Positions 6,354 through 31,000 of a stretch of 40,757 nt of DNA are shown here, piece after piece. This DNA is from Clostridia bacterium (GTDB lineage Bacteria; Bacillota; Clostridia; Oscillospirales; CAG-272). The notes under the pieces are model-generated. The model saw nothing but the letters and a program-made list of their open reading frames with translations. It searched no databases and had not been told where the DNA came from. Each line of letters begins with the position of its first letter. Within the stretch, counting starts at the first letter, position 1. Both the position numbers and the translations under genes were made by a program. Where the stretch lies: the NCBI GenBank assembly GCA_017503105.1, contig JAFVTS010000020.1, positions 1 to 40,757 of the forward strand, read 5' to 3'.

Positions 6354-6493
6354 GCGTTATTTACAAATCTTTTTCTTTTTTTGGCGGCTTTCTTGCTTGA
6401 TTTTTCGACGTTATCGTGTTATACTATAATAAGTATATTTTTATTTAAAAAGGGATGTAAATGAAAAAACACGTAATTACGCTGACTGCGTTT
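6354..6493 (+). repeat. Downstream copy of the duplicated promoter-leader (matches 1516-1648)
   Basis: This is the functional copy: promoter, ribosome binding site and first 11 codons of the first giant surface gene. It lies in the same orientation about 4.84 kb from the upstream copy. The pair flanks the whole AraC cassette as a direct repeat. Confidence 0.9.
6397..6425 (+). promoter_or_regulatory. Promoter of the first giant surface gene
   Basis: TTGATT (6397-6402) and TATACT (6420-6425) are separated by 17 bp, with a TGt extension at 6417-6419. The expected start is near 6432, about 29 bases before the ATG. A weak AAGGGAT ribosome binding site precedes the ATG at 6461. Confidence 0.75.
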
Positions 6494-9400
6494 ATATTCG
6501 CGATTGCTTGCGCGCTCAATATTTTCACAGAGCCTGTGCTCGCTTTGGCTTCCGTGAGCACGGGCGTTTATGCCGACGGCTCCGAGGATCCGTATAAAAG
6601 CCCCGAAGGCTCGTCGGACACCGTGACCTTGAGCTCCTCCGAGCTGCTTCGCCTTTTCGTCGGAGATCCTTTGTCGGATGCGGAGCTTGCTTGCGCTGAG
6701 AGGATGAGCACTCTTACGTTTTCGTACAGCAAGAATATTTCCTTGGACGGCGTCAGAGTCGTCGCTCCGAGAGGCTCCTCCGAGCTCTTCGTTTACGCGA
6801 ACGATACGTACGCGGATGAAACGCAAAGCGGGGTCTTTGTCGAATGGAAGCCGATTTCCGTAAGCTCGGGCACGAGCTCTGCCGAGTTTTCCGATGCGGA
6901 CGGGGAAGAGGGCTATTCTTACTTAGCTCGCCTTTCGTATGACGGCGAGTGTGAGGAGATATATATTACGTACGAGGCAAGCTTTGCCTTTTCTGCCGAG
7001 GTCGTAAACGAACTGTCAAACCTTGCGTACAAGGCGGCACTCGCTGCGAGTGACAGGATAGCTGAGGGAAATCGCGCGTATGAGCTTCTTCTTGCAGATT
7101 ACCGCGAAAGGCTTTCCGCGCACGAGCAATATCTTCTTGATCTGGCTGAGTACGAATCGGCTCTCGTCCTTTACGAGCAGTACGTAGAGGAATGCGACAG
7201 GATAAACGCATCTTACGAAGCCGCGATGCAGGATTATTACGAGCTTCTTTCACAGTACGAGGAGCTGAAGGCAGAGTATGAGCCCAAGAAAGCCGAGCAC
7301 GAGGCAGCCTTAGCGGAATACGAAAAGAAGCTTGCGGAGTATGAAACTTACATAAACGTAACGAAACCCGAGTACGATAAAGCTTACAACGAATATCTTG
7401 CGTACCTCGTTGCGCTTGAGGAGTATGAAGAGCTTTGCGAGAAGCGAGCCGTATACGAGGCCGATTCTCCTAAATTCCTTAAGCATCTTGAGATTATAAA
7501 CGTAGCGAAAACGGAGATGACCGATCACCGTACCCTCTACGGAGCGCTTATGGGTAATATGGTCGAGCAGGTGCTTGACAGGCAGGACGAGATAGTTGCG
7601 GGCGGTGCGCCCCGTGAGCTTGTCAGAATAGCGAGTCTTGCTACAAAAAAGCTGAAGATACTCTACGAGGAATATTTCAAGCTTACCTCCGACGCAGAGA
7701 GGTATGAGTATTATAAGAAGTATTATAAAGATTTTAAGACGAATATAATAAACCTTTTGCAGGCGCTTGACCGCTTTTACACTATGAACGGCGGTAACGG
7801 CATCGTATATACGAAGCTTGCTGACGAGGAAAAGGCTAAGAAGTACGTGATACTTCTCTCGCAGCTTTACGTCGTGGCAACCGCGCTTTCGGACGAGAAG
7901 GTCTATACTTACGGCGGCACGGCCGAGTTTACCGATGATTACACCTGGACTTACGCTCTTAATCTTAGCGATCTGCAGGCAGGAAAGATAGAAACGGTAA
8001 CTCCGATATCTATGCTTGAAGGCAAACGCTATCTTGGAGATGTAACCTCCGCCGCGCCTTATACGGAAGAATTTCCCGAATACGTCGACGTTCCCGTTAA
8101 GCCCACCGAGGTATTAAAGCCCGAGCCCGTAACGAAGGTTTCGAAGCCCGTGGAGCCGACGCCGCTTCCCGAGCTCGATCCGCCTCCCACAGTCCCCGAA
8201 GAGCCCGTTATGCCGACTCCCGTGGAAAAGCCCGAGCAGCCGACTCTTGTCGAGCACCCGGGAGAGGAGCCGAGCCCGTACGTTCCGACGCCCGAGGACT
8301 CGGAGCTTGCCGAGGCTCTTAAGACGGGAGATATCGTATGTCGCGAGGAGCGTGATACGGAGCTTTCCGTCACGCTTGACCAAACGGTTTCGAGAGATTT
8401 TTCTTCAAACGACGGAGCCGTCGTATATTTCTATTCTTCGAAAGAGGGCGGGGAGCTTCTTGATTACGATATAGTAGGTATCGGTGAGAGCGCGACGTTT
8501 GATGCTCAGACTCCCAAGAAGCCGTCGGATGACGAGTATCATTATGCGTTTTCTCATTGGATAGACGAGGACGGTAATGCCGCCTCTCTTGACGCTCTTG
8601 AGGCAGGTCACGTTCATCTTTACCCCGCGTATAAAAGCTTTGGCAAAAACGAGACCTTTACCGTGACTTGGAACGTAAACGGAGAGTTTACGGAAACCTT
8701 CTGTAAATACGGCGAGATCCCAAGCTACGGTTCGGTGCCTGCGAAGCCGAAGGACGGTACGTATTCTTACGTTTTCTCTTCTTGGGATAAAGAAATAACG
8801 CCCGTCGTCGGCGAGGTGACTTACACCGCCGTTTTCTCCGCCGTGAAGTATTATAAGATCACTTGGCTTGCAAACGGTGAGGTGTTTGCCGTTACTGACT
8901 GCAACGAAGGCGAGGTGCCTTCCGCGCCCGATGTCTTGCCCGAACGTCCCGAGGACGATTTCGGCGTATACTCTTTTGCGGGCTGGGACAGAGCGCTTGA
9001 GAGCGCGCACGGCGACAGCTCGTATGAAGCGCGCTTTGACGTTACGCGATACTATAAAATAACTTGGGTCGTTGACGGTCAGACCGTCGCGCAGACCAAA
9101 TGTCTTGAAACACAGACTCCCGTTTGTCCGATAGCCTCTCCCGTGCGTCCTGAGGACGAGGTCGGAGTGTATACTTTTTCGGGTTGGGATAAACCGCTGA
9201 CGCCTCCTACGTCCGATACGGTATACGAGGCTCTCTTTGACGTGACGAGATACCGCGAGATAAGCTGGACGGTTGACGGCAAAGTCATTGCCGTTACGAG
9301 ATGCCTTGACGGGCAGATACCGATCCCGCCCGCTCAAGCTCCGACGAAGCCCGATGACGATTACGGAAGATATACCTTCTCGGGCTGGGGTGAGCTTTTG

Positions 9401-12400
9401 CCGTGCTCCGCTGACACCTCGTACGAGGCGCGCTTTGACGTTCGACGTTATTACCAAATATCCTGGAGCGCCGACGGCTCGGTGCTTCTTAGCACGAAAT
9501 GCCTTGAAGGAGAAATTCCCGCGCCGCCCTCCGTCATCCCCGTGAAGCCCGATGACGATTACGGAAGATATACCTTCTCGGGCTGGGGTGAGCTTTTGCC
9601 GTGCTCCGCTGACACCTCGTACGAGGCGTGCTTTGACGTCGAGCGTTATTATAAAATAACCTGGACTGTTGACGGGCAGGTGCTTGCAAGCGTAAAATGC
9701 CTTGAAGGGGAAATTCCCGTTCCTCCGACTGACGCTCCGTCAAAGCCCGACGACGCCTACGGCAGATATACGTTTTCGGGCTGGGGCGAGGTTTTACCCG
9801 TAACGTGCGACACCTCTTACGAGGCACGCTTTGACGTCGTTCGCTATATGAAGATCGAATGGCGCCTTGAGGGGCAGAGCGTTGCCGTTACCTATTGTCT
9901 TGAAAACGAGGTGCCCGCATCTCCTTTTGAGATTGGTGATTCTCTTTACGACGACGGTGAATTCCGCTATCTTCTCCTCGGTTGGGATAGGGAGCTGACG
10001 GCACCGAGCTCCGATGAATTCTACGAAGCCCGATTTGAAAAGACGAAATACTTTAAAATTGATTGGGTGGTAAACGGCAAGCTCGCCGCGACCACGTACT
10101 GCGTAAGAGGGCAGATTCCGCAAGCTCCGATAACCGAGCTCGTAAGCGCGGAGGACGGCCGATATAAATACGTCATTACGGGCTGGGATCGCGAGCTCGA
10201 GATCCCAACGGACGATACCTCGTATCACGCGGAGTACGTGCTCAAAAGATTTTATACCGTTGAATGGTATAAGAGAGGAGAGCTTGTTCTCGCCTCGGAA
10301 TGCTTTGAGGGCGAAATACCCACAGCTCCCACGCTTCCCGCAGAAGAGAACGTCGGTGACGTTAAATATATCTTCCTCGGCTGGAATAAGCCGATAGGCG
10401 CGCTCAGCTCCGATACGGAGTACGAGGCACTCTTTGAGCAGATAAGGTACTATACCGTCACCTGGTTGGTAAACGGAACTGTATTTGCTACAACGCGGTG
10501 CGCGGAAAATGAAATTCCGACGCCGCCGAGCGGTATTCCCACTCGCGCAGAGGACGATTTCGGCGTGTATACCTTCAAGGATTGGGGTGGGGCACTTGAG
10601 TGCCCTGATTCCGATACGTCTTACGAGGCGCGATTTGACGTTTTGAGATACTATAAAATCGAATGGTGCGTCGGCGGCGTGGTTATGGCGACTATGAAAT
10701 GCCTTGAGACCGACGTTCCCGTATGCCCGATAACGTCGCCCGTAAAGCCGGAGGACGATTTTGGCGTATATACTTTCGTCGGTTGGGATAAGGAGATAGT
10801 CCCGCCCGTTTCCGACACGCGTTATACCGCGATCTTTGACGTCACCCGTTATTATAAGATCGAGTGGGTGGCGGACGGCGAGGTCATAGCAGTTTCCGAA
10901 TGCCTTGAAACGCAAGTGCCCACGTGTCCGATAAAAGACCCCGTTTTTAAAGACGACGGGGCGTACAGATATATAATAATATCTTGGGACAGAGCTTTCG
11001 AAAAGCCTACGTCCGATACGTCTTATACCGCCGTTGTCAAAAAGACCGATCTTTATAAAATAGATTGGATAGTTGACGGCGAGGTGTACGTGAGCGCCGA
11101 GTGCAAAAGAGGAGAGATCCCGAAGTGTCCCGTACCCGAATATTTCAGACCCGAGGGAGAAAATTACAAGTACGTTATAATCGGATGGGACAGGGCGTTT
11201 GAGCCTGCGGAGTTTGATACCTCCTATGAAGCAGAGTTCGTTAAAAAGTATTTTTATAAGATCGAATGGCGGGTGAACGGGGAAGTGTACGCCGTCACCG
11301 AGTGCTGTGAGGATTCGCGTCCCGAACCTCCCACAAAGTCGCCTTCGATGAAAAACGACGAGTTTTACAAGTACACGTTCGTCGGATGGGGAAAAATCGA
11401 CGAATGTCCCGCAAACGACACTTATTACGAGGCAGAATTTGAAAAAGACTTCGTTTACCCTTGCGGAAACGGCGGTGCTTCGGTAACTCTCAGCTACGGA
11501 AGGCTGACCTTGGATATAAGCGCTTGCGGCACGGATACTATCGAAGATCTTCCGCTCCTTTCGGAGCTTGCTCAAGGTAGGCGTGTTACTGTAAAAAATC
11601 AAAATTGGACGCTTTATTTTGAGGCAGAAAACTTAATCGCTTTGATAGAAAACGGCGTCTTTTCGGCTACGGTGCTCGCCGAGGTGACTGAGGGCGTCGG
11701 AACGTACAGCTTCGTTTTCGCTGATGAAATCGGAAACGGGCTTGAAGCATCCGAAGGATACGTTTCCAGAGCCGAATTTTCTCTTGACGGGCTTGCCGAA
11801 GCCGTAAACGGAGGAGAGATAAGCCTCGTCGCAGTCTTGCCTGACGGCACAAGTGAACGCAGAGGCTTTTCCTACGGAGTGGATAATTTTTCAATTGCGT
11901 CACCTCTCTGCAACGTTATCTATAAATATATTGAAGTTTTCGAGGTGAATTCTCCCTCCGCGCAAGCAGGTGTCAGCTTCAAAAATGAGGCAATAGCGGG
12001 GGAGCGTGTTGAATTTTCCGTTGAAATACCCGAAGGCAAAACCGTGTCCTCTCTCTACTACGTGGTTGAAGGGGCAGAGAACGTCAAGGTCCCGATAAAC
12101 GGGAGCAGCTTCGTTATGCCCGAGGGTAACGTGTGGCTCTTCGCCACCCTGAAGCCTCTTGAATTTTCCGTGACGTTCGTCTTTTACGACGGAACGTCAA
12201 AGACCGTTAACTGCGCTTGGGGAGAGATCCCGTCCGCACCGAGCGTTCCGCGCGGAATGAAGGCTGACAAGGTATACACCTTTATCGGCTGGGATAAGGA
12301 GCTTGACGCTGCTTATTCCGACAGCGTTTATACCGCGCTTTACGAGATCGAGGTCATCGACGGTGAGAGCGATCAGAAGGGCGATTTCTGGCTCCTTCTT

Positions 12401-12517
12401 CTGATTCTTTTATTCAGGTTCAGAGTCCTTTTGATAATCTCGCTTGCGGTGTCGGTCTTGTCGGCTGTCGCTTTCGTAATATACAGGATCTACAGAAAGA
12501 AACACCCTATTTCTTAA
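6461..12517 (+). CDS. Giant InlB/Flg_new B-repeat surface protein with C-terminal membrane anchor
   Basis: This 2018-residue protein starts with a signal peptide (about residues 1-28, ending VLA). Residues about 180-330 are rich in Glu, Tyr and Ala and look like a coiled coil, and about 545-605 are a Pro/Glu linker. Residues 734-1665 hold 14 tandem repeats of about 66 residues of the Listeria-Bacteroides (Flg_new, InlB B-repeat) type: K-I-x-W-x-V-x-G, then a Cys followed by x-E-G-E-I-P, then Y-x-F-x-G-W-D, then D-T-x-Y-x-A-x-F. A degenerate copy precedes the array and an isolated copy lies at about 1901-1965. Residues about 1976-2009 form a hydrophobic anchor followed by a short basic tail ending KKHPIS; there is no LPxTG motif. 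B-repeats are known as extracellular stalks and ligand-binding modules. The protein is therefore probably a cell-surface adhesin or stalk; its ligand is unknown. Confidence 0.88.
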   Translation: MKKHVITLTAFIFAIACALNIFTEPVLALASVSTGVYADGSEDPYKSPEGSSDTVTLSSSELLRLFVGDPLSDAELACAERMSTLTFSYSKNISLDGVRVVAPRGSSELFVYANDTYADETQSGVFVEWKPISVSSGTSSAEFSDADGEEGYSYLARLSYDGECEEIYITYEASFAFSAEVVNELSNLAYKAALAASDRIAEGNRAYELLLADYRERLSAHEQYLLDLAEYESALVLYEQYVEECDRINASYEAAMQDYYELLSQYEELKAEYEPKKAEHEAALAEYEKKLAEYETYINVTKPEYDKAYNEYLAYLVALEEYEELCEKRAVYEADSPKFLKHLEIINVAKTEMTDHRTLYGALMGNMVEQVLDRQDEIVAGGAPRELVRIASLATKKLKILYEEYFKLTSDAERYEYYKKYYKDFKTNIINLLQALDRFYTMNGGNGIVYTKLADEEKAKKYVILLSQLYVVATALSDEKVYTYGGTAEFTDDYTWTYALNLSDLQAGKIETVTPISMLEGKRYLGDVTSAAPYTEEFPEYVDVPVKPTEVLKPEPVTKVSKPVEPTPLPELDPPPTVPEEPVMPTPVEKPEQPTLVEHPGEEPSPYVPTPEDSELAEALKTGDIVCREERDTELSVTLDQTVSRDFSSNDGAVVYFYSSKEGGELLDYDIVGIGESATFDAQTPKKPSDDEYHYAFSHWIDEDGNAASLDALEAGHVHLYPAYKSFGKNETFTVTWNVNGEFTETFCKYGEIPSYGSVPAKPKDGTYSYVFSSWDKEITPVVGEVTYTAVFSAVKYYKITWLANGEVFAVTDCNEGEVPSAPDVLPERPEDDFGVYSFAGWDRALESAHGDSSYEARFDVTRYYKITWVVDGQTVAQTKCLETQTPVCPIASPVRPEDEVGVYTFSGWDKPLTPPTSDTVYEALFDVTRYREISWTVDGKVIAVTRCLDGQIPIPPAQAPTKPDDDYGRYTFSGWGELLPCSADTSYEARFDVRRYYQISWSADGSVLLSTKCLEGEIPAPPSVIPVKPDDDYGRYTFSGWGELLPCSADTSYEACFDVERYYKITWTVDGQVLASVKCLEGEIPVPPTDAPSKPDDAYGRYTFSGWGEVLPVTCDTSYEARFDVVRYMKIEWRLEGQSVAVTYCLENEVPASPFEIGDSLYDDGEFRYLLLGWDRELTAPSSDEFYEARFEKTKYFKIDWVVNGKLAATTYCVRGQIPQAPITELVSAEDGRYKYVITGWDRELEIPTDDTSYHAEYVLKRFYTVEWYKRGELVLASECFEGEIPTAPTLPAEENVGDVKYIFLGWNKPIGALSSDTEYEALFEQIRYYTVTWLVNGTVFATTRCAENEIPTPPSGIPTRAEDDFGVYTFKDWGGALECPDSDTSYEARFDVLRYYKIEWCVGGVVMATMKCLETDVPVCPITSPVKPEDDFGVYTFVGWDKEIVPPVSDTRYTAIFDVTRYYKIEWVADGEVIAVSECLETQVPTCPIKDPVFKDDGAYRYIIISWDRAFEKPTSDTSYTAVVKKTDLYKIDWIVDGEVYVSAECKRGEIPKCPVPEYFRPEGENYKYVIIGWDRAFEPAEFDTSYEAEFVKKYFYKIEWRVNGEVYAVTECCEDSRPEPPTKSPSMKNDEFYKYTFVGWGKIDECPANDTYYEAEFEKDFVYPCGNGGASVTLSYGRLTLDISACGTDTIEDLPLLSELAQGRRVTVKNQNWTLYFEAENLIALIENGVFSATVLAEVTEGVGTYSFVFADEIGNGLEASEGYVSRAEFSLDGLAEAVNGGEISLVAVLPDGTSERRGFSYGVDNFSIASPLCNVIYKYIEVFEVNSPSAQAGVSFKNEAIAGERVEFSVEIPEGKTVSSLYYVVEGAENVKVPINGSSFVMPEGNVWLFATLKPLEFSVTFVFYDGTSKTVNCAWGEIPSAPSVPRGMKADKVYTFIGWDKELDAAYSDSVYTALYEIEVIDGESDQKGDFWLLLLILLFRFRVLLIISLAVSVLSAVAFVIYRIYRKKHPIS
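8660..11455 (+). repeat. Array of 14 B-repeats (about 200 bp each)
   Basis: Fourteen in-frame repeats of about 66 codons lie head to tail in the 6461-12517 gene. Two adjacent units share an exact 85-bp block (9346-9430 and 9544-9628, offset 198 bp), which indicates recent duplication or gene conversion. Most units keep one Cys just before the E-G-E-I-P turn. Confidence 0.9.
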
Positions 12518-12807: not shown

Positions 12808-12891
12808 TATTCCATAAAGCTACGAGTGTGCGCTTCCTCGCGCGCGTTTCTTTAATGCTTAAAATAAAAAATATAAAATGTGAGGTATGGT

Positions 12892-15800
12892 ATGAAAACA
12901 ATCAGTAAGCATTTAAAAGCTGTCGTTGTTCTTTTGCTTGCTCTTGTGATGCTGTGCTCTGTTAGCTTTACCGCTATCGCTGCGGTAACAGACGGAGAGT
13001 CGCAGCAGACGCAGCAAACGAAGAGCACCGTTCTTCCCGATAACACGGGGGAGGGCGAGAATATCACGGGATGGCTTGACATCACTTACGGCAAGGACGG
13101 TGTCACCTTGACACTTACTCCCGACATTGCCGAAATCAAGGGAATTACGAAGAATGAATTGACTTCTCTTGTTTCGACGCTCGTTGAGGCGTTCAAGACC
13201 GTTGTGATAAGCGATATCAAGGATGATTTCATCGCAGGCGGCGAGAGCATTACGTCCGCCGATTTCGTTGACAAGGCGATGGATCTCTATCTTGACGAGG
13301 TCGGATACGCATCTGCGATGGACTTCTTCAAGGACCTTGTGGATCCGCTCTTCGCGGACGTTGTGCGTGAGGATTTCATTGATTATGCGTGCGATCTTCT
13401 CGGAACGTCAATTAAGCTTGGCGTGGTCGATCCCGCCGATCTTCCCACAGGCGAAAAGCTTGGCGAAAAGATCACTCAGTACGTAGAGGACACCGTCAAC
13501 GATTACATTGATGAATATATCGACGGTAACATCACCGATCTCATAGATATCGTTTTTGATGAGCACGGTGACGTGTTTATCGACAAGTACTTTGATGAAT
13601 ACCTCGACGTTTTCGTTGATAAGTACTTCGATGAATACCTCGGCAAATTCATTGATACTTACTTCGAAACATACCTCGGTGATTTCATCGACACGTACTT
13701 CGACAAGTATCTCGGCGATTTCATCGATACCTATTTCGATAAGTATTTCGCTGATTTCATCGACTCGAATCTTTCTGCTTTCGTAGACAAGTATCTTGAC
13801 GAAAAGCTTGTTTCGTTCGTTGATACTTACTTCGATAAGTACCTTGCTGATTTCATTGATACCTACTTCGACAAGTATCTCGGCGATTTCATCGACACGT
13901 ACTTTGAGGACAATCTTGATAGCTTCATTGATACTTATTTCGATGAAAACCTCGACACCATAACGGGGAAGTATCTTGACGAGCTCTTCGGCGCGTCCGC
14001 AACCTACAACGGTGAGGTTGAAGAGATGCTCCGCGACAAGATGCAGCTTTCCGTTGCCGAGTACATCAAGGATCACGTTTTCAATTATCTTGATAACAAC
14101 GTCGGAACCGACGAGGTCGATAAGATAATCGAAAAATACATAAAGAAGAAGGTTCACGAGGAGCTTGTCGGAAGCCCGGCAGACCCCGGTCTTGTCGACG
14201 AATATATCGACGGTACGATGACCTCCTCCGATCCGCTCTACAACTTCATAACCGACAGACTTCAGAGCTATATCGAGGACCACTTCCTTAACGACGGCGG
14301 TTACGAGGATTACGTTGATGATTACATTGCTTACGTTAAGAACGGAGGCACGGGCGACGCTATCTACGACGAGGTAACGAACGACATCGATAACTCGATC
14401 GGAATTTGGGTCGCAGAGGTAATCGAATTTAAGAAAAACGGAACTCCCGTTTCTTCGACCAACAGGATCGTTGACGTTCTGAGCGCTTATACCGCCACCT
14501 CGCTTGAAACGGCGTGGAGCACCGATGAGGCTGCTATCAGGGCAGAGATATGGACTGAGCTTCTTGCCGACGACACGCTTCTTGAAGGCGTCGTTACCGA
14601 CGACCTTGAGAGCTTCTGGGATAAGCACGAGGATGACCACGATTTCATTAAGGAATACGCAGGCAACCTTTGGACGGGCGCAAACCACGACGAGCTTCTT
14701 GCTGAGATCGAGGAAATGATCCTTGACAGCAATACCTGTAAGCACACTATTATCGACTCGCTCTTCGTTGACGACCTTGGAAATCTTAAGGTCGATTTCA
14801 CCATCGATCACCTGAAGGAAATGCTCGTAGGTCTTGACTCGGGTGAGCAGGCTCTTCTCAGAGCAGAAATTGAAGCAGCGTTTGAAACCGCTGTTGACGG
14901 TGCCGTAACCGAGCTTAAGGCGGTTATTGCAGACTCCACTCTCGCAGACCCCAACGGTTACAGAGCAATGGTTGACGCCGTCGTTGCCGAGGCAAAGGCT
15001 ATCGTGCTTGACGAAACTCTCGCAGACCCGAACGGTTACAGAGCGATGATCGAGGACGTTAAGGCAGACGTCAAGGCAGTAATGACCGACGAAACTCTCG
15101 CAGACCCGAACGGTTACAGAGATATTATAAATGACGTTATCGATGAGGTAAAGGCTGTTATCGCCGACGACACTCTTGCAGACCCGAACGGTTACAGAGA
15201 TATAGTAGGCGACGTTGTCGATGAGATCAAGGCTGTAATAGCAGACGATACTCTCCCCGACCCGAACGGTTACAGAGACGTCGTAGACGACGTTATCGAT
15301 GAAGTAAAGGCTGTAATGGCAGACGCGACCCTCGCAGACCCGAACGGTTACAGAGCGATGATCAATGACGTTAAGGCGGAGATCAAGGCTGTAATGGCAG
15401 ACGCGACTCTCGCAGACCCGAACGGTTACAGAGACGTTATAAACGACGTTATCGATGAAGTCAAGGCTGTTATCGCTGATGACACGCTTGCAGACCCGAA
15501 CGGTTACAGAGATATAGTAAACGACGTAGTTGACGAGGTCAAGGCTGTTATCGCTGATGACACTCTCGCAGATCCAAACGGTTACAGAGATATAGTAAAC
15601 GACGTAGTTGACGAGGTCAAGGCTGTTATCGCTGATGACACTCTCGCAGATCCGAACGGTTACAGAGATATAGTAAACGACGTAGTTGATGAGATCAAAG
15701 CCGTAATGGCAGACGACACTCTCCCCGACCCGAACGGTTACAGAGATATAATCACCGACTTCGTTGATGAGCTCAAGGCTCTTATGTCCGACGACACTCT

Positions 15801-18800
15801 CCCCGACCCGAACGGTTACAGAGATATAATCACCGATCTCATTGATGAGATCAAGGCTCTTATCGTTGATAAAAACGCACCCGATCCCAACGGATACAGA
15901 CCCGTGATCAGCGACTTCATTGATGATTACTGTGTAGACAAGTTCGGACTTACTTACGAAGCGCTTCTTGATGAGATCGATATCTTCAAGAGTCAGTTCA
16001 TCGTAAGCTACGACGATACCCTTAAAAACACCGGTGAATTCTCGCCTAAGGATATTCTTCTTATGATCAAGTCCGTGAAGATGGGCGAGCACGGAGGAAC
16101 TCTTTACGAGATCTACGGTGATGAAACCACCGGAACCACTCAGTTCTTCGTTGCTAATCTCGTAGAACTGTTCAATACCCTTCCTACGATAGACGAGCTT
16201 GCTCTTATGAGTGCTGAGGAGATGAACCTCGTTTACGACTTCTACGTAAATACGCAGTACGGCGATTGCGATTTCAACATCGCGCTCGTTGCATCCGAGG
16301 AAGCATACGATTACATTCACCGCGCGGCAGGAGTTGTTGCCGATCACGTTGATTATTCCTTCGACTTGACCAACGGACTCTTTGCTGACGTTGAAATGCC
16401 CGCCATCTTCACCGCAGCCGTTCTTAAGGCTTGCGAGTCGGGCAGAATTCCCGAGGATCTTAAGGATAAGGTCTTCACCGTAATTTCCAAGAACCCCGAC
16501 GAGGCATATACGTTCTTTACCGAGCTTGAATATGCCGATATCATCACCTTACTTGAAAAGATAGATTTCGAGGACATCCTTAATAAGGATCAGATAGCTA
16601 AGTTTGTAAATCTCGTAGATCCCTATATCACTCAGGTGGATCTCGATACTCTTACGAACGAGGAGCTTATCGCAAAGCTTGAGCAGTACGCAGGTCATTT
16701 CAACACTCTTAAGAACTACGTGGCAAGAATCTATTCGAAGGTTCCCGCCGCTCTTAAGACGAAAGATATATTTGACCTTTACGACGGCAACGGAGTATTC
16801 TCCATAGATGCTGATGCTAATAATATAAATGTAGCAGACAGCTTATATAAGCTTGTTTCCAGATTCAACGAGGATCTTGCTCTCGCACTTTCGACGGCTC
16901 TCGATATCAAGACTCTTGATATCGCGGCAGACGTCACCGTTTCCTTCACCGACATTTACAGCGTAGAGTTCTATCAGCCCGGTGAAACCGAGTCTTACAG
17001 AAGAGGATTCCTTCCCGCAGGCGCTGATCTCTCCGCATTCGCGGACGTAACGGAAATAAACGGCGAGCCCGTTCTTGCTTGGGTCGAATTTACGACCACG
17101 AGAGCTCTTGGCACGGTAGGCAAGGTTCTTACAGAGATGCCCGAGGGCGACGTTAAGATAATGGCACTCGTTAAGGAAAGCGTAACGAGCCCCGACGACG
17201 TAGCGGCAGAGGCAGACGGAACCGTTTACGACCTTACCGCGGGCGTTAGCGCAAATATTGATCTTGCGAGCATCGCAGGCGTACAGGTCGCTTATCAGTG
17301 GTATAAGGACGGTGCCGCTATCAGCGGAGCTTTGGCAGACACCTATCCCGTTTCTCTTCCTACCGACAGCGGCGAGTATTACTGCGTGATTACGATCACT
17401 GCCGATATAGACGGTGAGACGACCGTTCTCGCTGAATATACCACGGACACGGCAACGGTTCAAATCGACGAGCGTATCGTTATTGACGTAGACCTTGACG
17501 ACATCAAGCTTCTCCCTGCGGAAATTATCTATAACGGCTCACTTCAGACGGTAACTCTTTCCGCATATGACGGAACGTACATTCTTATGACTATCATTGA
17601 CGGTGCGAGCGGTACGAATGCAGGTACTTACACCGCACAGGTCAAGATCGAAGTCCTTGATGAATATAAGCATCATACCTATATCCGTATTAACGGGGTA
17701 GAGTACCAGGTTTACGATCAGCACTTTATCGATTGGGAAATTAAGCGCGCGAAGGTAGAGGTTACCGATAACGGACTTATCGGCGACGTTGCGGAGACCT
17801 ACGACGGAACCGAAAAGGAAGTAAGCTTCGACGTTACTCACGCGGCTCCCGACGGAGTTCTCGTCATCACTACCACGGGCAACAAGGCAACGAACGCAGG
17901 CAGCTACACCGCAGAGCTTGAGATCGCACTCGATCCCACGGTAGCGGCAAACTACGAGCTTTGGGTAAACGGCGTGCTTTACGACACTACGCCTTATACC
18001 GCAAGCGCGACTTGGGAAATTAAGCGCGCGAAGGTAGAGGTTACCGATAACGGACTTATCGGCGACGTTGCGGAGACCTACGACGGAACCGAAAAGGAAG
18101 TAAGCTTCGACGTTACTCACGCAGCTCCCGACGGAGTTCTCGTCATCACTACCACGGGCAACAAGGCAACGAACGCAGGCAGCTACACCGCAGAGATTGA
18201 GATCGCACTTGATCCCACGGTAGCGGCAAACTACGAGCTTTGGGTAAACGGCGTGCTTTACGACACCACGCCTTACACCGCAAGCGCGGCTTGGGAGATC
18301 GGGCGTCAGAGAACGGACGTTACTATCTCGGGCCTTGTAAATGCTGACGACCTCGTTTATAACGCAAACGATCAGACCGTAACGTTTGACTCGGTTTACG
18401 GTACTGCGGTAGAGTATACCGTAACGGGTAACGTTCAGAAGAATGCAGGAACTTATGAAGCAAAAGCAAGCTTCAAGCTTACCGATAACAACTACGTTCT
18501 TTACGTGAACGGAGCAGAGGATGCCGACGGTATCTTCGAGTTTACGGCAACCTGGTCTATCGCAAGATTTACCATAGTTAACGAAGGCTTTATAACCAAA
18601 GAAACCGAGTACAACGAAGAAGAGCAGGTATTCCTTCTTGATTTCGTTCTTCCCGACGCTGATGCTCTTGAAGTAGTTTATAAGAACAACAAGGCTACCA
18701 ACGCGGGCACGTACACGATGGAGGCGATCTACAATATCGCAGCCGCACACGCAAATAATTACGTTATCGTAGATGAGCTCGGTAACGAGCTTGCACAGCC

Positions 18801-21800
18801 CGTAACGCTTGTTTGCGTATGGACTATCACCAAGAGAGTTATTGAAACAGGCGACTTCCTTGACGCTCTCGTACAAAACGAATTCGTATACGACGGCACC
18901 GAGAAGAGCGCGACTCTTAAGAACCTTGGAATTCTTAATGACTTCGCTATCGATCTGTTCACTTCCGATAAGGGAACTAACGTCGGTACGTACAGAGCTA
19001 TTCTTATCATAACGCTTGAGGACACCGATAACAACGTCTTCGTTGATGACGACGGAAATCATATCACCTCCAAGCACTACGAGCTTCCTTGGTCGATCAC
19101 TCCCAAGGCTGTAAACGTAGGCGATCTTGACGTTTCTCTTGAAGTGTCAGACTTCGTCTTCGACGGTCAGTCGCACTCCGTTGAGCTTAAGGATCTTCCT
19201 TATTACATCATAGCAGAGCTTAGCGGTGACGTAGTAATGACCGAAAAGGGCACTTACACCGTAACCGCAACCATTCGCGCTGACGGCAACCATATGCTCA
19301 TTGACGCGACGGGCGCCGTTGTTTCCGAGTTTACCGTTCCTCTTACTTGGACCATCTCTTCCGAGAAGGTTTACGTAGAGATCGGAAATCTTGTAAATTC
19401 CACGGGTCTTATCTATAACGGTACTGTTCAGTCAGTATCCTTTGATAAGCTTGTATACGATCCCGCACTCGTTAACGTAACAATAACAGGTCTTTCCGCT
19501 ACAGGCGCCGGTGACCATACCGTAACCGTTAACGTTTCTCTCAAGAATCCCGACAATTACGAGCTCGTTATTCTCGGCGAAACCACTCATACTTGGTCTA
19601 TCGCAAAGAAAACGGTCGTAGTAGAGATCGGCACTCTTACCAACGCGACAGGACTTGTTTATAACGGTGCTGTTCAGTCCGTAAGCTTTGATAAGCTTTC
19701 GTATGACGCAGATCTCGTTAAGGTAACGGTCAGCGGACTTTCCGCTATAAATGCGGGAAGCAACTATACGGCATTCGTAAACGTTGAGCTGCTTGATACG
19801 GCAAACTACGAACTCAAGGTTATAGGTGCGCAGAGCCAGAGCTGGTCCATCGCTCCCGCAAGAATTGACGCGACCATAGGTCAGCTTCTTAATGCTACGG
19901 GCCTTGTTTACAACGGTTCGTCTTACCTCGTTTCCTTCGATAACGTGAAGTATGATCCCAAGCTCGTGAACTTCGAGCTCGTCGGCAACAAGCAAACGGG
20001 CGCGGGAAGCTACGAGGCAAAGGCTGTATTCACTCTCAAGGATACGCTTAACTACGACCTCTACGTAAATGGCGTTTACGCAGGTGATTCTTATGAGCAG
20101 ACCGCTAAGTGGTCCATCGCAAGAAAGTCTGTTACCGTTGAGATCGGTAATCTTGTAAACGCAGACGGTCTCGTTTACAACGGCAAGCTTCAGTCTGTTA
20201 CCTTTGACAAGATCGTATACGATCCCGCTCTCGTAACTATGACCGTTGAGGGCAACTCCGCTACGGCGGCAGGTGAGTACGAGGCAAAGGTAGTATTCGA
20301 GCTCCTTGACTCCGCAAACTATCAGCTCAACGTTATAGGAAATACTACGGGTCACACCTGGTCTATCGCAAAGGCAAGAGCAGACGTAGCGTTTGACGCT
20401 CTTGCAAACGCAAGCGGCCTTGTTTACAATGCTGCTACGCAGACTGTCAACTTCGCAAACGTAAATTATCCCCGCGATCTCGTTACCTACACCGTAACCG
20501 GCAATTCGGCAATAGATGCAGGTGACTATACCGCAGCTATCAAGTTCGTCGTTAACGATTCCGATAATTACGACCTCTTTGTAAACGGCGTTCTCGCTGA
20601 GGGCGGTGAATATGAATTCACCGAGGATTGGTCTATCGCAAAGGCTGATATTTATGCCGAGTTCGACGTTACCTTCGATAACGATTACGACTTTACTTAC
20701 GACGGAGAAGAGAAGAACGTAAGCTTCACCGTAAACAAGCTTTGGTTCGACAGTGCTCTTTCCAATATCGTAAGTGTTGAGTACGTCGGAACAAGCGCTA
20801 CCAACGCGGATGAGTACACCGCTTACGCAAGATTCGTCCTCGCTGAGGAATACCGTAACAATTACGCGCTTTACATCAACGGCGATCTTTGCGCCGAGGG
20901 CGTATATACCGTTTCCGCAGATTGGGAGATCAAGCCCGTAAAGGTTTCTTACAAGGATCTTATTAACGGAGATCTCGTGCTTGAATATAACGGCAAGAGA
21001 CAGTCCGTGAAGTTCGATCTCGGTGAGTATGTTGATTTTATCAATGTGACTTACTCCGGAAATGCCGCTAAGGATATCGGCGTTTACACTCTTACTGCTA
21101 CCTTCAGTGTTAAAGACGAGTATATAGGCAATTACGTTCTCGTTGACGAGGACGGCAACATCTCCGATACGATGGTTTATACTGCCGATTGGGAGATCGC
21201 AAAGACTAACGTCACTCTTGATTCTGTAAGCTTCGAGGATCTCACGGTAGATTGCAACGGAACTAAGCAGTCCATCACCCTTACCGGCACGCTTCCCGCA
21301 GGTGTTAGCGTTAAGTACTTCAACAATGAACACGTAAAGGTTGGCGTTTATAAGGCTACTGCCGTTATCACGGTTGATGACCCCGAGCTTTACACCATCG
21401 ACGGACAGACTTCCGTAACTCTTGAGGCTGTACTTACCATAGTCGCAGCACCTCGGACGTTTAACGTCACCGATTCGACAGGAAAGGTGATAGCAGAGGT
21501 TACCGCTCACGACGGAATGGTTGCTCCCGACGTTGATCTTTCTACGGTTGACATCTCGTTCGCATACGATACTTGCGAGTTCGCTGAGCACTTCGACGTC
21601 AAGTACGGTGGAAAGGTTGCAAAGATATACCTCGCTTACGATCTCAACTTCGTTGATAAGAACGGTGACAGATGCACGGTCGACGACACCTTTACCGTAA
21701 GAATAGCACTTCCCGACAGCATTAAGAACAATCCTAACCTTATTCTTCTTTACATCAATGATGAGGGTGTAGCTGAGCAGGAGCTCGCTTACACTATCGA

Positions 21801-23427
21801 TAACGGTTATATTACCTTCAACACAGATCACTTCTCGGCATACGCTGTTGCTGAAGCTGTTGACGCTCCTGTCACGGATGAGAGCTCGTTCCCCTGGTGG
21901 ATCATTCTCATTATCGTAGGCGGCATTATCATAATCGTAGTCGTAATAATCATTATAAAGAAAAAGCGTTCGGGTCCCTCTGATCCCACCGAACCCACGG
22001 AAGAACTTCCCGAGGACGGAGCAGAGACCGAAGAGCCTGAAGAAGAATCCCTTCCCGAAGAGGAAGCTCCCATAGCGGAGCTTCCCCCTCTGGATGAAGC
22101 TTTCGCAGAAGAGGCGCCCGCCGAGGAGCCTGCAGTCGAAGAGGCTGTCGCAGAAGAGGCGCCCGTCGAGGAGCCCGCAGTTGAAGAGGCTGTCGCAGAA
22201 GAGGCACCCGTCGAGGAGCCCGCAGTTGAAGAGACTGTCGCAGAAGAGGCACCCGTCGAGGAGCCCGTAGTCGAAGAGGCTGTCGCAGAAGAGGAGCCCG
22301 TCGAGGAGCCCGCAGTTGAAGAGGCTGTCGCAGAAGAGGCACCCGTCGAGGAGCTCGTAGTCGAAGAGGCTGTCGCAGAAGAGGCACCCGTCGAAGAGCC
22401 CGCAGTCGAAGAGACTGCCGCAGAGGAGGCACCCGTTGCTGAAAAGTCAGCGGAGGAATCCGGCGAGGTCATCATCGCTATCGCACCCGAAACAAAGGGC
22501 GACGAGGACGAAAGCATAGGGCAGAGGATCATCAACGGTGAAGTCGTTCTCGTAAGCTACAGAAGCTCCTATATGTCAAGACTCATTCAGGCAGACTCCG
22601 AAATACAGGATTATTACACCGTTATCAAGAACACGCTCCTTTCTTACGAGGGCGTAAAGGCGAGAACGAGCTGGAACTTTGAATCCTTCAACAAGGGCAG
22701 AGTTCAGTGCGCGAAGATCAACCTTAAGGGCAGATCGCTTCTCGTTTATATAGGTCTTGATCCCAACGAGTATAACATCAATAAGTATCACTTCGTTGAC
22801 GTTTCCGACAAGCCTAAGTTCGAAAAGGTTCCTATGCTTATGAAGGTAAAGAGCGACAGAGGACTTAAGTACGTTCTTGAGCTTATCGAGGAAATGATGA
22901 ACAAGAATCAGATACCTCAGGGACCTATGCCCACTGACGATTATCATATGCCTTACGAAACTACCGAAGAGCTCGTTAAGAGAGACCTCGTGAAGGTTAT
23001 TCTTCCTCCCGGTGTAACTCTTGATGAAAATGCAAATATCGGCAGACTTGACGTAGGTGAAATGCTTGATAACGCAAACGGCGAAAAGACCGAGCTCCAC
23101 GTTGACGCGGAGCACGCTGATGAACTTCTCACCGATGAAGAGGCAGAAGCAAGCATCGAAATGATCGAAAGGACCGAGTCCGAACCGAGAGACGGTAAGC
23201 TTGCCGAGGTCAATCTTGATACCATTTGTGATAACTTTGACGACGGCGAAACCGTTGATCTCAACGCTTTGCAGGAAAAACGCATCGTAAGCAAGAGCGC
23301 AGGAAGAATCAAGGTTATAGCTCGCGGAATTATGACCAAGCGTCTTATCATCATCGCAGATAAGTTCTCGCTCCAGGCTGTAAAGATGATCACTCTTGCA
23401 GGCGGCGTTGCCGAGCAGTACAAGTAA
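12892..23427 (+). CDS. Giant surface protein: short repeats, Ig-like and MBG modules, TM helix, uL15-like cytoplasmic tail
   Basis: The frame is open from a GTG at 12880, but that triplet lies in the TGAGGT ribosome binding site; the ATG at 12892 is the likely start (3511 residues). Order: signal peptide (1-31); 12-residue acidic aromatic repeats (about 222-366); helical region; 13 repeats of 26 residues containing PNGYR (681-1018); an Ig-like domain (about 1442-1527, YQWYKDG and DSGEYYC); 15 MBG/YDG-type modules (about 1530-2853, each with Y-[DN]-G, a NAGTYTA-like strand and a final W-x-I); a beta domain ending DHFSAYAVAE; a TM helix (about 3002-3026); a stop-transfer KKKR; a Glu/Pro-rich repeat; and a cytoplasmic tail of about 300 residues. 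Residues 3438-3511 resemble the C-terminal half of ribosomal protein uL15. It should span the membrane once with its N-terminus outside. Adhesion is inferred; the role of the tail is unknown. Confidence 0.88.
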   Translation: MKTISKHLKAVVVLLLALVMLCSVSFTAIAAVTDGESQQTQQTKSTVLPDNTGEGENITGWLDITYGKDGVTLTLTPDIAEIKGITKNELTSLVSTLVEAFKTVVISDIKDDFIAGGESITSADFVDKAMDLYLDEVGYASAMDFFKDLVDPLFADVVREDFIDYACDLLGTSIKLGVVDPADLPTGEKLGEKITQYVEDTVNDYIDEYIDGNITDLIDIVFDEHGDVFIDKYFDEYLDVFVDKYFDEYLGKFIDTYFETYLGDFIDTYFDKYLGDFIDTYFDKYFADFIDSNLSAFVDKYLDEKLVSFVDTYFDKYLADFIDTYFDKYLGDFIDTYFEDNLDSFIDTYFDENLDTITGKYLDELFGASATYNGEVEEMLRDKMQLSVAEYIKDHVFNYLDNNVGTDEVDKIIEKYIKKKVHEELVGSPADPGLVDEYIDGTMTSSDPLYNFITDRLQSYIEDHFLNDGGYEDYVDDYIAYVKNGGTGDAIYDEVTNDIDNSIGIWVAEVIEFKKNGTPVSSTNRIVDVLSAYTATSLETAWSTDEAAIRAEIWTELLADDTLLEGVVTDDLESFWDKHEDDHDFIKEYAGNLWTGANHDELLAEIEEMILDSNTCKHTIIDSLFVDDLGNLKVDFTIDHLKEMLVGLDSGEQALLRAEIEAAFETAVDGAVTELKAVIADSTLADPNGYRAMVDAVVAEAKAIVLDETLADPNGYRAMIEDVKADVKAVMTDETLADPNGYRDIINDVIDEVKAVIADDTLADPNGYRDIVGDVVDEIKAVIADDTLPDPNGYRDVVDDVIDEVKAVMADATLADPNGYRAMINDVKAEIKAVMADATLADPNGYRDVINDVIDEVKAVIADDTLADPNGYRDIVNDVVDEVKAVIADDTLADPNGYRDIVNDVVDEVKAVIADDTLADPNGYRDIVNDVVDEIKAVMADDTLPDPNGYRDIITDFVDELKALMSDDTLPDPNGYRDIITDLIDEIKALIVDKNAPDPNGYRPVISDFIDDYCVDKFGLTYEALLDEIDIFKSQFIVSYDDTLKNTGEFSPKDILLMIKSVKMGEHGGTLYEIYGDETTGTTQFFVANLVELFNTLPTIDELALMSAEEMNLVYDFYVNTQYGDCDFNIALVASEEAYDYIHRAAGVVADHVDYSFDLTNGLFADVEMPAIFTAAVLKACESGRIPEDLKDKVFTVISKNPDEAYTFFTELEYADIITLLEKIDFEDILNKDQIAKFVNLVDPYITQVDLDTLTNEELIAKLEQYAGHFNTLKNYVARIYSKVPAALKTKDIFDLYDGNGVFSIDADANNINVADSLYKLVSRFNEDLALALSTALDIKTLDIAADVTVSFTDIYSVEFYQPGETESYRRGFLPAGADLSAFADVTEINGEPVLAWVEFTTTRALGTVGKVLTEMPEGDVKIMALVKESVTSPDDVAAEADGTVYDLTAGVSANIDLASIAGVQVAYQWYKDGAAISGALADTYPVSLPTDSGEYYCVITITADIDGETTVLAEYTTDTATVQIDERIVIDVDLDDIKLLPAEIIYNGSLQTVTLSAYDGTYILMTIIDGASGTNAGTYTAQVKIEVLDEYKHHTYIRINGVEYQVYDQHFIDWEIKRAKVEVTDNGLIGDVAETYDGTEKEVSFDVTHAAPDGVLVITTTGNKATNAGSYTAELEIALDPTVAANYELWVNGVLYDTTPYTASATWEIKRAKVEVTDNGLIGDVAETYDGTEKEVSFDVTHAAPDGVLVITTTGNKATNAGSYTAEIEIALDPTVAANYELWVNGVLYDTTPYTASAAWEIGRQRTDVTISGLVNADDLVYNANDQTVTFDSVYGTAVEYTVTGNVQKNAGTYEAKASFKLTDNNYVLYVNGAEDADGIFEFTATWSIARFTIVNEGFITKETEYNEEEQVFLLDFVLPDADALEVVYKNNKATNAGTYTMEAIYNIAAAHANNYVIVDELGNELAQPVTLVCVWTITKRVIETGDFLDALVQNEFVYDGTEKSATLKNLGILNDFAIDLFTSDKGTNVGTYRAILIITLEDTDNNVFVDDDGNHITSKHYELPWSITPKAVNVGDLDVSLEVSDFVFDGQSHSVELKDLPYYIIAELSGDVVMTEKGTYTVTATIRADGNHMLIDATGAVVSEFTVPLTWTISSEKVYVEIGNLVNSTGLIYNGTVQSVSFDKLVYDPALVNVTITGLSATGAGDHTVTVNVSLKNPDNYELVILGETTHTWSIAKKTVVVEIGTLTNATGLVYNGAVQSVSFDKLSYDADLVKVTVSGLSAINAGSNYTAFVNVELLDTANYELKVIGAQSQSWSIAPARIDATIGQLLNATGLVYNGSSYLVSFDNVKYDPKLVNFELVGNKQTGAGSYEAKAVFTLKDTLNYDLYVNGVYAGDSYEQTAKWSIARKSVTVEIGNLVNADGLVYNGKLQSVTFDKIVYDPALVTMTVEGNSATAAGEYEAKVVFELLDSANYQLNVIGNTTGHTWSIAKARADVAFDALANASGLVYNAATQTVNFANVNYPRDLVTYTVTGNSAIDAGDYTAAIKFVVNDSDNYDLFVNGVLAEGGEYEFTEDWSIAKADIYAEFDVTFDNDYDFTYDGEEKNVSFTVNKLWFDSALSNIVSVEYVGTSATNADEYTAYARFVLAEEYRNNYALYINGDLCAEGVYTVSADWEIKPVKVSYKDLINGDLVLEYNGKRQSVKFDLGEYVDFINVTYSGNAAKDIGVYTLTATFSVKDEYIGNYVLVDEDGNISDTMVYTADWEIAKTNVTLDSVSFEDLTVDCNGTKQSITLTGTLPAGVSVKYFNNEHVKVGVYKATAVITVDDPELYTIDGQTSVTLEAVLTIVAAPRTFNVTDSTGKVIAEVTAHDGMVAPDVDLSTVDISFAYDTCEFAEHFDVKYGGKVAKIYLAYDLNFVDKNGDRCTVDDTFTVRIALPDSIKNNPNLILLYINDEGVAEQELAYTIDNGYITFNTDHFSAYAVAEAVDAPVTDESSFPWWIILIIVGGIIIIVVVIIIIKKKRSGPSDPTEPTEELPEDGAETEEPEEESLPEEEAPIAELPPLDEAFAEEAPAEEPAVEEAVAEEAPVEEPAVEEAVAEEAPVEEPAVEETVAEEAPVEEPVVEEAVAEEEPVEEPAVEEAVAEEAPVEELVVEEAVAEEAPVEEPAVEETAAEEAPVAEKSAEESGEVIIAIAPETKGDEDESIGQRIINGEVVLVSYRSSYMSRLIQADSEIQDYYTVIKNTLLSYEGVKARTSWNFESFNKGRVQCAKINLKGRSLLVYIGLDPNEYNINKYHFVDVSDKPKFEKVPMLMKVKSDRGLKYVLELIEEMMNKNQIPQGPMPTDDYHMPYETTEELVKRDLVKVILPPGVTLDENANIGRLDVGEMLDNANGEKTELHVDAEHADELLTDEEAEASIEMIERTESEPRDGKLAEVNLDTICDNFDDGETVDLNALQEKRIVSKSAGRIKVIARGIMTKRLIIIADKFSLQAVKMITLAGGVAEQYK
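13555..13990 (+). repeat. Tandem 36-bp repeats encoding a 12-residue acidic aromatic motif
   Basis: About a dozen units encode variants of GDFIDTYFDKYL in frame in the second giant gene. The pattern is very rich in Asp, Phe, Tyr and Ile, and one unit is shortened to 8 residues. I do not recognise a named family; the spacing suggests an amphipathic helical or solenoid structure. Confidence 0.85.
14932..15945 (+). repeat. Thirteen 78-bp repeats encoding a 26-residue PNGYR motif
   Basis: The unit encodes roughly D-D-T-L-A-D-P-N-G-Y-R followed by an acidic helix ending DEVKAVIA. Units starting at 15511 and 15589 differ at one base over 78, so this part of the array is young or being homogenised. 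The last unit is divergent and merges into unique sequence. Confidence 0.92.
17735..18292 (+). repeat. Two nearly identical 279-bp MBG modules in tandem
   Basis: The segments 17735-18013 and 18014-18292 differ at only about 6-8 positions by eye, while the other MBG modules of this gene are much more diverged. They encode 93 residues each, containing YDGTEKEV and ATNAGSYTAE. Confidence 0.9.
22096..22440 (+). repeat. 45-bp tandem repeat encoding a Glu/Pro-rich 15-mer
   Basis: Units start at 22096, 22141, 22186, 22231, 22276, 22321, 22366 and 22411 (the last is partial and diverged). Each encodes a variant of EEAVAEEAPVEEPAV. The array lies just inside the predicted TM helix, so it should be a flexible acidic cytoplasmic linker. 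Its near-identity makes length variation between strains likely. Confidence 0.92.
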
Positions 23428-28093: not shown

Positions 28094-31000
28094 ATGAAAA
28101 CGACCTTGAAGAACTCTTTGAAAGCAAGAATCGTTTGCCTCTTTATGCTCGTGGCAATGCTCTTTAACGTATTGCCGATGAGTGCGTTTGCGGAGGAATT
28201 CGCAAACGGGGCAGAGGGTGAGGAAGCAGGCGGAGGTGCGGACACCGACGGCGGTGACGTTACCGAGCCCGATACCGACGGAGATACGACCGTTGATTAC
28301 AGCGGAGCTGTTGACGTTTCGTCATCGGACGAGCTTGAGGCTGCACTCGCTCTCGGCGTAAGTGCGATTCGCTTAACTGCGGATTTTGAGCTCGACCGCA
28401 CTTACTACGTAGCTTCGGATACCGTAATAGTTTCCGACGAACCCCGCCTCCTTACGAGAGCTGCCGATTTCGGCGGTGACGTTTTCGTAGTCGGCGAAAC
28501 CGAGGACGGAGTGCCAAGCTCAGCACCCGTGGTCTTTACGGTAGGTAAACCCGATGACCCGACGGGCTCTTTGATAGTAATAGACGGAAATGCCGACGCT
28601 ATGACTGTGGACGTCACGGGAACGGTGTTCTTCGTCCGTGAGGGGTCAAGAGCCGATCTTTATTATAATTTAACGGTATGCAACAGCGTTAAAGTCGGAA
28701 ACGCAAAAACCGCGAATGCCGACTATAAGCTTTCTTATCCCGTGCGTATAGGCGGAGCCGTCGCGATAGTATCTTACAAGGCTTCTATGCGCATCTTCGG
28801 AGGTCTTTACGCGAATAACCGCGTAAACGACATCACGGATTCTTCAACGGACGAGGGGAATGCCTCGAGCCAGGGCGGAGCTTTTTACAATTACGGCACT
28901 CTTGACATTTTCGGCGGCGTATTCTCCGAAAACCACGCAGGTCGAGGCGGTGTATTCTATAACTACCGCACGATGAATATTTACAGCGCCGAGATAAGAA
29001 ACAATACTGCGTCGACCCTCGGCGGAGCTATATACGTTCCTAACAGTACGGGTGCTTTCCTTTACGTAGGCGAAGATAACGATATGACGGAAAGCTCGGT
29101 AGTATTCTCCGACAATACGGCGGTGTCAAACGGCGGAGCCATTTACGCTCAACACGTCGCATCGATTGGTAATGCGAAATTCATTCGCAACGTGTCCGAG
29201 TCGGGAAACGGCGGTGCGATCTCCGCAGGAGCTATGGAGCTCTCGCTCACTAACAGCACGTTTGAAGCCAATGCCGCAGACGGCGGATACGGCGGCGCCG
29301 TATACATTACGGGTAACAACGGAGATGAGGATATTAAGGAGCTCATAGCCGAGAGTGCTAAGTTTATCTCCAACTCTTCAAAACGCGGCGGCGCGGTGTA
29401 TATGAGCGGCACGTCGAGAGCGTATTTCTCTACTGCTGTGTTCGAAGGAAACGTTTCTGAGTCTTACGGCGGCGCCGTATACGTTACTAATGCGTCGCTT
29501 GAAGTAAACGGAGCTGAGTTTAAGAACAACACCTCCGTCACAAACGGCGGAGCCGTGTCCCTCTATTCTTCGGCAAGCGCCGTAATGAATAATATCGTAG
29601 CGGACGGCAACTCTTCCGGCGCGGGCGGATTTGCTTATTCTACCGAGGCCGTACTCAGTATTTATAACAGCGTTTTTAGAAACAACTCTTCCGAGAAAAA
29701 CGGCGGTGCCATATACGCTTACACGGGCGCGGAGCTTTACGCATACGCGTGCGAGTTCACGAAGAATACGGGCAGCGTCGGAGGTGCCGTAACTATTTAT
29801 AACGGTGGTCTTGCCTCGGTGATACATACCTGCACGTTTAACGGTAACGAGGGAACGGAGAGCGGCGGCGCCATCTATATATCCAACAAATCTCAAGTTG
29901 ATATATATAACGTAAAAGCATTTGGCAACAGCTCGGCAAAGGGCGGATTTATGTATGAGACCACGGCGGGAACCGTCGTGCATCTTGTCGGAACGTACCT
30001 CTCGGGCAATACCGCGACAGCGGGCGGTCCTATAATCTGGGGTAACACGCTCAACGCCAAGCTTTACATCGATAAGATAAAATACGTTGACAACGATTAC
30101 AGCGGTGATTGGAATGACGAATATTGGGCGTCGGCTATATACAACAAGCTGACGGTCTACGATCAGATCGGAACCATTCCGTCTTACGTTGACTACTCGG
30201 GCTCTGAGGTCCTTCCGCCCGTTGCGGAATCCATTACCAACGTTTCGACCGCGGCTCAGCTTGAGCGAGCTTTAGAGGTTGGATACACTCTCATCCGTAT
30301 CACGGCTGACTTCGAGCTTGACAGAACCTTCTATATTACTTCAAATACAACTATCTTTTCCGATGAGGTGCGCGTGCTTAAAAGAGCGGCGGACTTCGGC
30401 GGCGATATTTTCGTCGTAGGTGAGGATGCCGACGGCAACCGTACCGATTCGGAGGTTGTTCTTACGCTTACGAAGCTCGACGGCACCGACTCTGCGCTTA
30501 CCGTCGACGGAAATTCAGATGCGATGAGTGTGGACGTAGTCGGAACGGTGATCTTCGTTTGCACGGGCAATAGAGCTGACCTTGGACCCAATTTTTCCGT
30601 TTCGGGACATACGAAGGTCGGAAACGACAGAGTAAAGAACGGTTATTCCGTTTCTTATCCCGCACGTGTCGGCGGCGCAGTTGCTATTATCGAATCAAAG
30701 GGCGTTATGAATATTTACGGCGGTAAGTATTCGGATAACAGAACCAACGATATTACAGATACCTCTACGGATGAGGGCAGCATATCCAGCTACGGCGGTG
30801 CGTTCTATAATTACGGAACGATGAATATTTACGGCGGTATATTTGAAAACAACCACGCAGGCCGTGGCGGTGCGTTCTATAACTACCGCACTATGAACAT
30901 TTATAACGCCACCATAATAGGAAATACCGCTTCTACCTACGGCGGAGCTATCTACACGCCCAACAGCGACAGCGCGTTCCTTTACGTAGGCGCGGAGAAC

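Follow-up and report, generated by a model that had tools for sequence, protein, structure and literature searches.

Gram-positive single-pass surface adhesins consist of a signal peptide, a repeat-containing ectodomain, a transmembrane (TM) helix, a positively charged stop-transfer sequence, and a short tail. The L15 fold, in turn, is to our knowledge found only in ribosomes. Here, we analyzed a 40,757-nucleotide stretch of DNA from an uncultured Clostridia bacterium (GCA_017503105.1, contig JAFVTS010000020.1; the whole stretch is called the window below), in which a gene for a giant surface protein (12892..23427, plus strand; 3511 amino acids [aa] from ATG, within an open reading frame [ORF] at 12880-23427 that encodes 3515 aa from GTG 12880) ends in a structured tail. 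A preliminary description of this DNA had recognized the C-terminal half of ribosomal protein uL15 on the tail, and the sequence, the order of the elements, and the fold bear this out. The same tail was identified in membrane proteins of numerous other genomes of uncultured bacteria, mostly from the gut, and it appears to be a means, not described before, of connecting the cell surface with the cell interior. No title on such membrane protein tails was among those listed by a literature search of open-access papers, with most subscription papers being outside it.

The TM helix of the giant protein (21895..21957; hydropathy and position; all window features are on the plus strand) is followed by a KKKR stop-transfer sequence, which is the positive-inside flank (21958..21969), and by an acidic linker of E/P/A/V repeats (21970..22524; 185 aa; net charge, -70). 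The linker leads to a basic, DUF5655-like, and probably double-wing domain, for which we coined the label SYM (22561..22908), and the conserved motif DYxxPYETTxxLxxRGLVK closes this domain (22933..23013). The acidic two-helix AD motif (23095..23166) then occupies the place of the uL15 rRNA-binding arm, and the uL15 C-terminal globular domain (23197..23424), with its tail-specific motifs AVKMIxL[TA]GG and LARG, completes the protein. At the N terminus, a signal peptide (12892..12984) is predicted by eye on the basis of a basic start, a hydrophobic core, and an A-x-A end. The ectodomain of ~2970 residues is rich in repeats that by eye resemble MBG repeats; the Pfam scan of the protein listed no MBG model, and in the ectodomain it yielded DUF4183 over the cutoff and several further subthreshold matches.

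The terminal domain was identified as the C-terminal domain of the L15/L18e fold, and the matches to a structural model of the whole tail were filled by ribosome entries. The TIGR01071 equivalog score of the tail was 39.3 bits, below the cutoff of 77.95. We compared 93 tails with 25 rplO sequences, 24 of which were the best-scoring ones of the class sample described below and hence, if anything, the most tail-like. In two adjacent columns, the tails have K (100%) and M (98%), whereas rplO has E (92%) and K (96%); three columns further on, L (98%) is found in the tails and mostly A or K in rplO. The AVKMIxL[TA]GG motif stands where rplO has AxEKIExAGG, and LARG stands where rplO has LG[N/S]G. 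The mean charge of the uL15 half-domain is +3.5 in the tails and +0.4 in rplO. In all 25 rplO sequences, the match to the tail model begins only at position 30-34, and the preceding stretch in the tails is the AD motif (mean charge, -5.5), predicted in the structural model as two short helices with a predicted local distance difference test score of about 90. The N-terminal glycine/basic rRNA-binding half of uL15 is not present in the tail, and the acidic AD motif is found there instead. A pairing of the AD and uL15 charges was considered and dropped, as no correlation was seen over 92 sequences (r, 0.06). In a tree of 118 rows (93 tails and 25 rplO sequences) and 79 columns, which leaves many inner forks open, the rplO set lies on one side of a branch with a support of 100/100. 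The tail uL15 domain is a paralogue distinct from rplO, and its divergence from rplO was directed.

The window genome (44 contigs) contains three tail-type copies and a separate rplO gene. Its two other tail proteins are a TM protein of 175 aa and a protein of 596 aa with a signal peptide and a TM helix. In addition, a TM protein of 699 aa (L004:364-2463) carries SYM only, with a subthreshold match to DUF5305; a gene on its downstream side looks TasA-like by eye. A search for other membrane proteins with the same tail, as had been proposed, was run on the contigs of named genomes: 458 stretches fit the patterns, and 414 were confirmed as relatives, the best 80 of which were kept for further analysis. 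The titles of these best 80 are those of metagenome-assembled genomes (MAGs) or uncultured bacteria, mostly "Clostridia bacterium" (herbivore guts), Oscillospiraceae, and Candidatus Borkfalkia, as well as Bacilli, Erysipelotrichaceae, Acholeplasmatales, Anaeroplasmataceae, and one titled Gammaproteobacteria.

In the genus survey (genomes at least 85% complete), a tail-type match, i.e., one starting at model position 1-4, was found in 26 of 34 genomes, or in 27 with one that is cut off in a 90-aa frame; six genomes had rplO-type matches only, and one had no match at an E value of ≤1e-10. Among the 393 genomes of the class sample, six had listed tail-type matches (the window genome, four of one family, and one of another), the matches being listed down to an E value of ~1.5e-11, so that weaker tail matches could escape. 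In the phylum sample (398 genomes; E ≤ 1e-18), only the window genome had a tail-type match, and the tail is thus rare at that breadth; in six other genomes, the matches begin at model position 27-30 within 148-213-aa frames and were read as rplO. The tail was present in all 15 genomes or records reached via loci. For ten of these, a further match, lying in a frame of 147-156 aa, was listed and read as rplO (E ≤ 1e-8), and five, including a virus record, list no such match at that threshold. Two tail-type matches (G867:C3:18366-18713 and G869:C9:9724-10047) belong to open frames that, with 5284 and 5220 codons, respectively, exceed the window protein. One virus collection contig (L145) has a tail gene downstream of a BspA-type leucine-rich-repeat surface gene, and the contig may be host DNA because of this adjacent gene. 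A mobile or phage origin was rejected: tblastn searches of phages and plasmids gave 6 and 9 records, respectively. In no record was 80% of the query covered at a single place, and no match begins before query residue 23. Six records are annotated at the matched position, with rplO or 50S L15 as the gene; of the remaining records, 7 had no annotation and 2 had no feature at the match.

In the loci in hand, 137 ORFs match the tail model, comprising 112 tail-type ORFs (93 distinct at the C terminus) and the 25 rplO ORFs. The tail domain stops 3-32 residues, mostly 4-6, before the stop codon in all 112 tail-type ORFs. All but one of the 68 complete tail ORFs have a TM helix ahead of the tail. The exception is an ORF without a TM helix in the MAG titled Gammaproteobacteria (L126), with a membrane-like gene just upstream; this MAG is likely misbinned. 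Among the 67 TM-bearing complete ORFs, 31 have <120 residues before the helix, 20 have an ectodomain and SYM, and 16 have an ectodomain without SYM. Another 20 tail ORFs, truncated because the contig or locus ends within them, show no TM helix in the remaining part. SYM was found in 47 of the 68 complete ORFs, with one copy in 33, two in 9, and three in 5. Of the 34 ectodomains longer than 300 residues, 33 were scanned against Pfam (L100 was omitted as a copy of L097), giving Flg_new in 13, MBG_3 in 2, and seven other families once each; the adhesive role of these repeat ectodomains is putative. The preliminary description had treated the tail as that of an adhesin on the basis of the window giant. 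Short membrane proteins that lack an ectodomain also belong to the family, and the tail is therefore not confined to adhesins.

The placement of the tail on the cytoplasmic side, also proposed earlier, is supported indirectly. By a simple hydropathy rule, which sets some helices in the wrong place (e.g., in L125), 77 of 91 TM-bearing ORFs have more lysine and arginine on the side of the tail, with some species counted twice. SYM proteins without a detected TM helix share loci with tail genes in L113, L115, and L131, which supports a cytoplasmic position of the tail; in L124, a single hydrophobic stretch appears when the ORF of the SYM protein is extended upstream. The SYM proteins of these four loci (285-370 codons) carry a conserved Cys-rich DLCG...C.YC segment. 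Against a cytoplasmic position, L131 and L144 have short forms in which the TM helix is followed on the tail side by a repeat that is Flg_new-like by eye, Flg_new repeats being usually extracellular.

The layout of the SYM domain had been said to recall DUF5655, and sequence profiles now indicate that the two are related: comparison of the SYM and DUF5655 (PF18899) profiles gave a probability of 86.8 and an E value of 4.2e-6 over 106 columns. The window SYM domain itself gave no PF18899 match in Pfam at the curated cutoff; 4 of 85 SYM relatives match PF18899 at an E value of ≤1 (best, 1.9e-5), and three loci retrieved by PF18899 were also retrieved by the SYM profile (E values of 4e-10 to 7e-9). 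In two of the DUF5655 loci (L147 and L153), the domain is placed C-terminal to GmrSD nuclease domains. A search of the SYM profile against the sequences of solved structures gave nothing at an E value of ≤10. For its fold, SYM was searched with a second structural model. The best fold matches were YdhG, DUF1801, YjbR-family, and MotA-C entries (7 of ranks 1 to 8 are so named), and they include the DNA-binding domain of T4 MotA, one entry containing double-stranded DNA (dsDNA). SYM thus probably has the YdhG/YjbR/MotA-C double-wing fold. Its mean net charge is +8.0, being positive in 84 of 85 sequences. In the class sample, a strong SYM match (E < 1e-20) was found in 6/6 listed tail genomes versus 4/387 others (Fisher, 4e-11, kinship ignored).

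The tail genes lie in several kinds of surface operon. In the window, the gene directly upstream (6461..12517) encodes a candidate partner protein of 2018 aa with a long coiled coil, a C-terminal TM helix, and a short basic tail; its repeats look Flg_new-like by eye, and Pfam listed none. Homologues of its residues 31-560 are encoded directly upstream of the giant gene in all 12 window-type loci, i.e., those of complete SYM-bearing giants of Clostridia with an ectodomain of >1000 residues (in five of them, the upstream ORF is truncated by the start of the locus), and the other 24 complete ectodomain loci gave no match. The four loci whose tail ORF is complete and 176-191 codons long (L002, L095, L119, and L125; uncultured Clostridia) share the gene order p163, SipW-like peptidase, TM-AD-uL15, and TasA-like. 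In the three loci in which the families were checked, the peptidases match NF046067 (E values of 2.2e-19, 4.4e-15, and 7.2e-18), with equivalog scores far below the cutoffs; a TIGR04088 signal peptide match was just at its own cutoff in one case (19.1 versus 19). Peptidase_M73 (camelysin) was over the cutoff in two TasA-like genes, and a Pfam scan of one SipW-like protein gave no signal peptidase family. In eight loci (L091, L097, L098, L110, L121, L127, L134, and L038), two of which are cut, the first gene downstream of the tail gene encodes an MscS-type channel, and a Big_2-type gene is next in five; these families were assigned by Pfam for the L097 pair and by homology to it elsewhere. In L112, a short tail form lies downstream of genes that are pilus type by eye. 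The window also encodes a second giant surface protein (28094-39376, plus strand; 3760 aa), with 23 Chlam_PMP and 5 Laminin_G_3 stretches and, between them, a region that by eye is phospholipase D-like (HxK).

The preliminary description had proposed that the tail could link the outside to ribosomes, RNA, or a partner protein. We tentatively favor the explanation that this is a family-wide cytoplasmic docking tail, since surface proteins that are unrelated to one another, from surface operons of several kinds, end in the same module with its own conserved motif. In uncultured Clostridia and Bacilli, the AD-uL15 module would dock the surface proteins onto a single conserved partner in the cytoplasm, the basic, probably double-wing SYM domains may contact nucleic acid or ribonucleoprotein (nucleoid or polysomes), and the tail would thereby anchor or position surface fibers or adhesins from inside the cell. 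Contact with nucleic acid is plausible because SYM is strongly basic and probably has a double-wing fold, and the GmrSD nuclease domains in 2/5 scanned DUF5655 relatives were also counted in favor of the docking explanation. SYM is absent from 21 of the 68 complete tail ORFs, so such contact would not be general.

The SYM-free tails would fit a pure protein sorting tag, with AD-uL15, the common part, as an address label that brings surface proteins together at a secretion machine or at some site of the membrane, without any nucleic acid role. The operon ties to SipW-like signal peptidase and TasA-like genes and the pilus-type genes of L112 point the same way, but the strongly basic SYM domain and its co-occurrence with the tail are left unexplained, and we regard this alternative as unlikely, if the best of those considered. 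Somewhat less likely again is a reading in which the tails would be transmembrane nucleic acid anchors, the repurposed ribosomal fold and the basic double-wing domains physically tying surface fibers and adhesins to nucleoid or polysomes and so providing an outside-to-nucleic-acid linkage, in some lineages possibly force coupled via the neighboring MscS-type channel. The same channel genes, as well as the fold matches to T4 MotA and to the dsDNA-containing entry, would suit a membrane-tethered regulator, in which contact or tension at the ectodomain leads to cleavage near the membrane and the freed SYM-uL15 part binds DNA or RNA and alters expression. However, a dedicated sensor would not be expected to have uniform tails on very different ectodomains or to occur in short, N-anchored forms, and no protease link was seen in the neighborhoods read, where no systematic protease search was made; we consider a regulator improbable. 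Slightly more improbable still is recruitment of ribosomes, whereby the uL15-like tail would bind the large subunit or an assembly factor and bring translation of its partners to the membrane: the tail has no rRNA-binding arm and carries other residues at positions conserved in rplO, and rplO itself accompanies the tail in the window genome and in 10 of the 15 locus-linked records. The tail as a literal ribosomal protein was rejected on account of the lost arm, the subthreshold equivalog score, and the separate rplO gene, and the evidence leans away from literal incorporation into the ribosome because the rRNA-binding half is absent, the C-terminal helix is remodeled, and an rplO gene is also present. 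Chance similarity or a misassembled adhesin-rplO join, for which only the 44 contigs of the window genome would speak, is negligible and was rejected, given the 414 relatives in many independent genomes, the three tail copies besides rplO in the window genome, and a tail group distinct from rplO.

In both Clostridia and Bacilli, membrane proteins whose ectodomains have little in common carry a ribosomal fold at what is probably their cytoplasmic end. Large membrane proteins with PF00828 matches are therefore not necessarily misannotated. If the tail docks to one partner, it would be an undescribed means of organizing Gram-positive surface fibers from inside, and if the basic domain binds DNA or RNA, contact at the cell surface would be linked to the nucleoid or translation.

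The tail resembles bacterial uL15 (rplO; PF00828 and TIGR01071) in that it keeps the C-terminal globular half in sequence, element order, and fold, whereas it lacks the N-terminal rRNA-binding half, has the AD, AVKMIxL, and LARG motifs, is carried by membrane proteins, and coexists with rplO in its own genome. SYM resembles DUF5655 by the profile similarity over 106 columns and probably also the YdhG/DUF1801, YjbR/MmcQ, and MotA-C double-wing fold, as judged from the fold ranks. However, nine sampled DUF5655 domains have charges of -6 to +3 compared to the SYM mean of +8.0, and SYM is found mostly on membrane proteins, whereas two of five scanned whole DUF5655 proteins are GmrSD-type nucleases. 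The Bacillus subtilis biofilm matrix operon has the order tapA-sipW-tasA, and the corresponding tail loci likewise have a SipW-like peptidase gene followed by TasA-like genes, but with the TM-AD-uL15 protein gene in between in 4/4 loci. Finally, the window giant shares the signal peptide, repeat ectodomain, TM helix, and positive stop-transfer sequence with the single-pass adhesins of Gram-positive bacteria, whereas the tail proteins end in a structured cytoplasmic tail with conserved domains.

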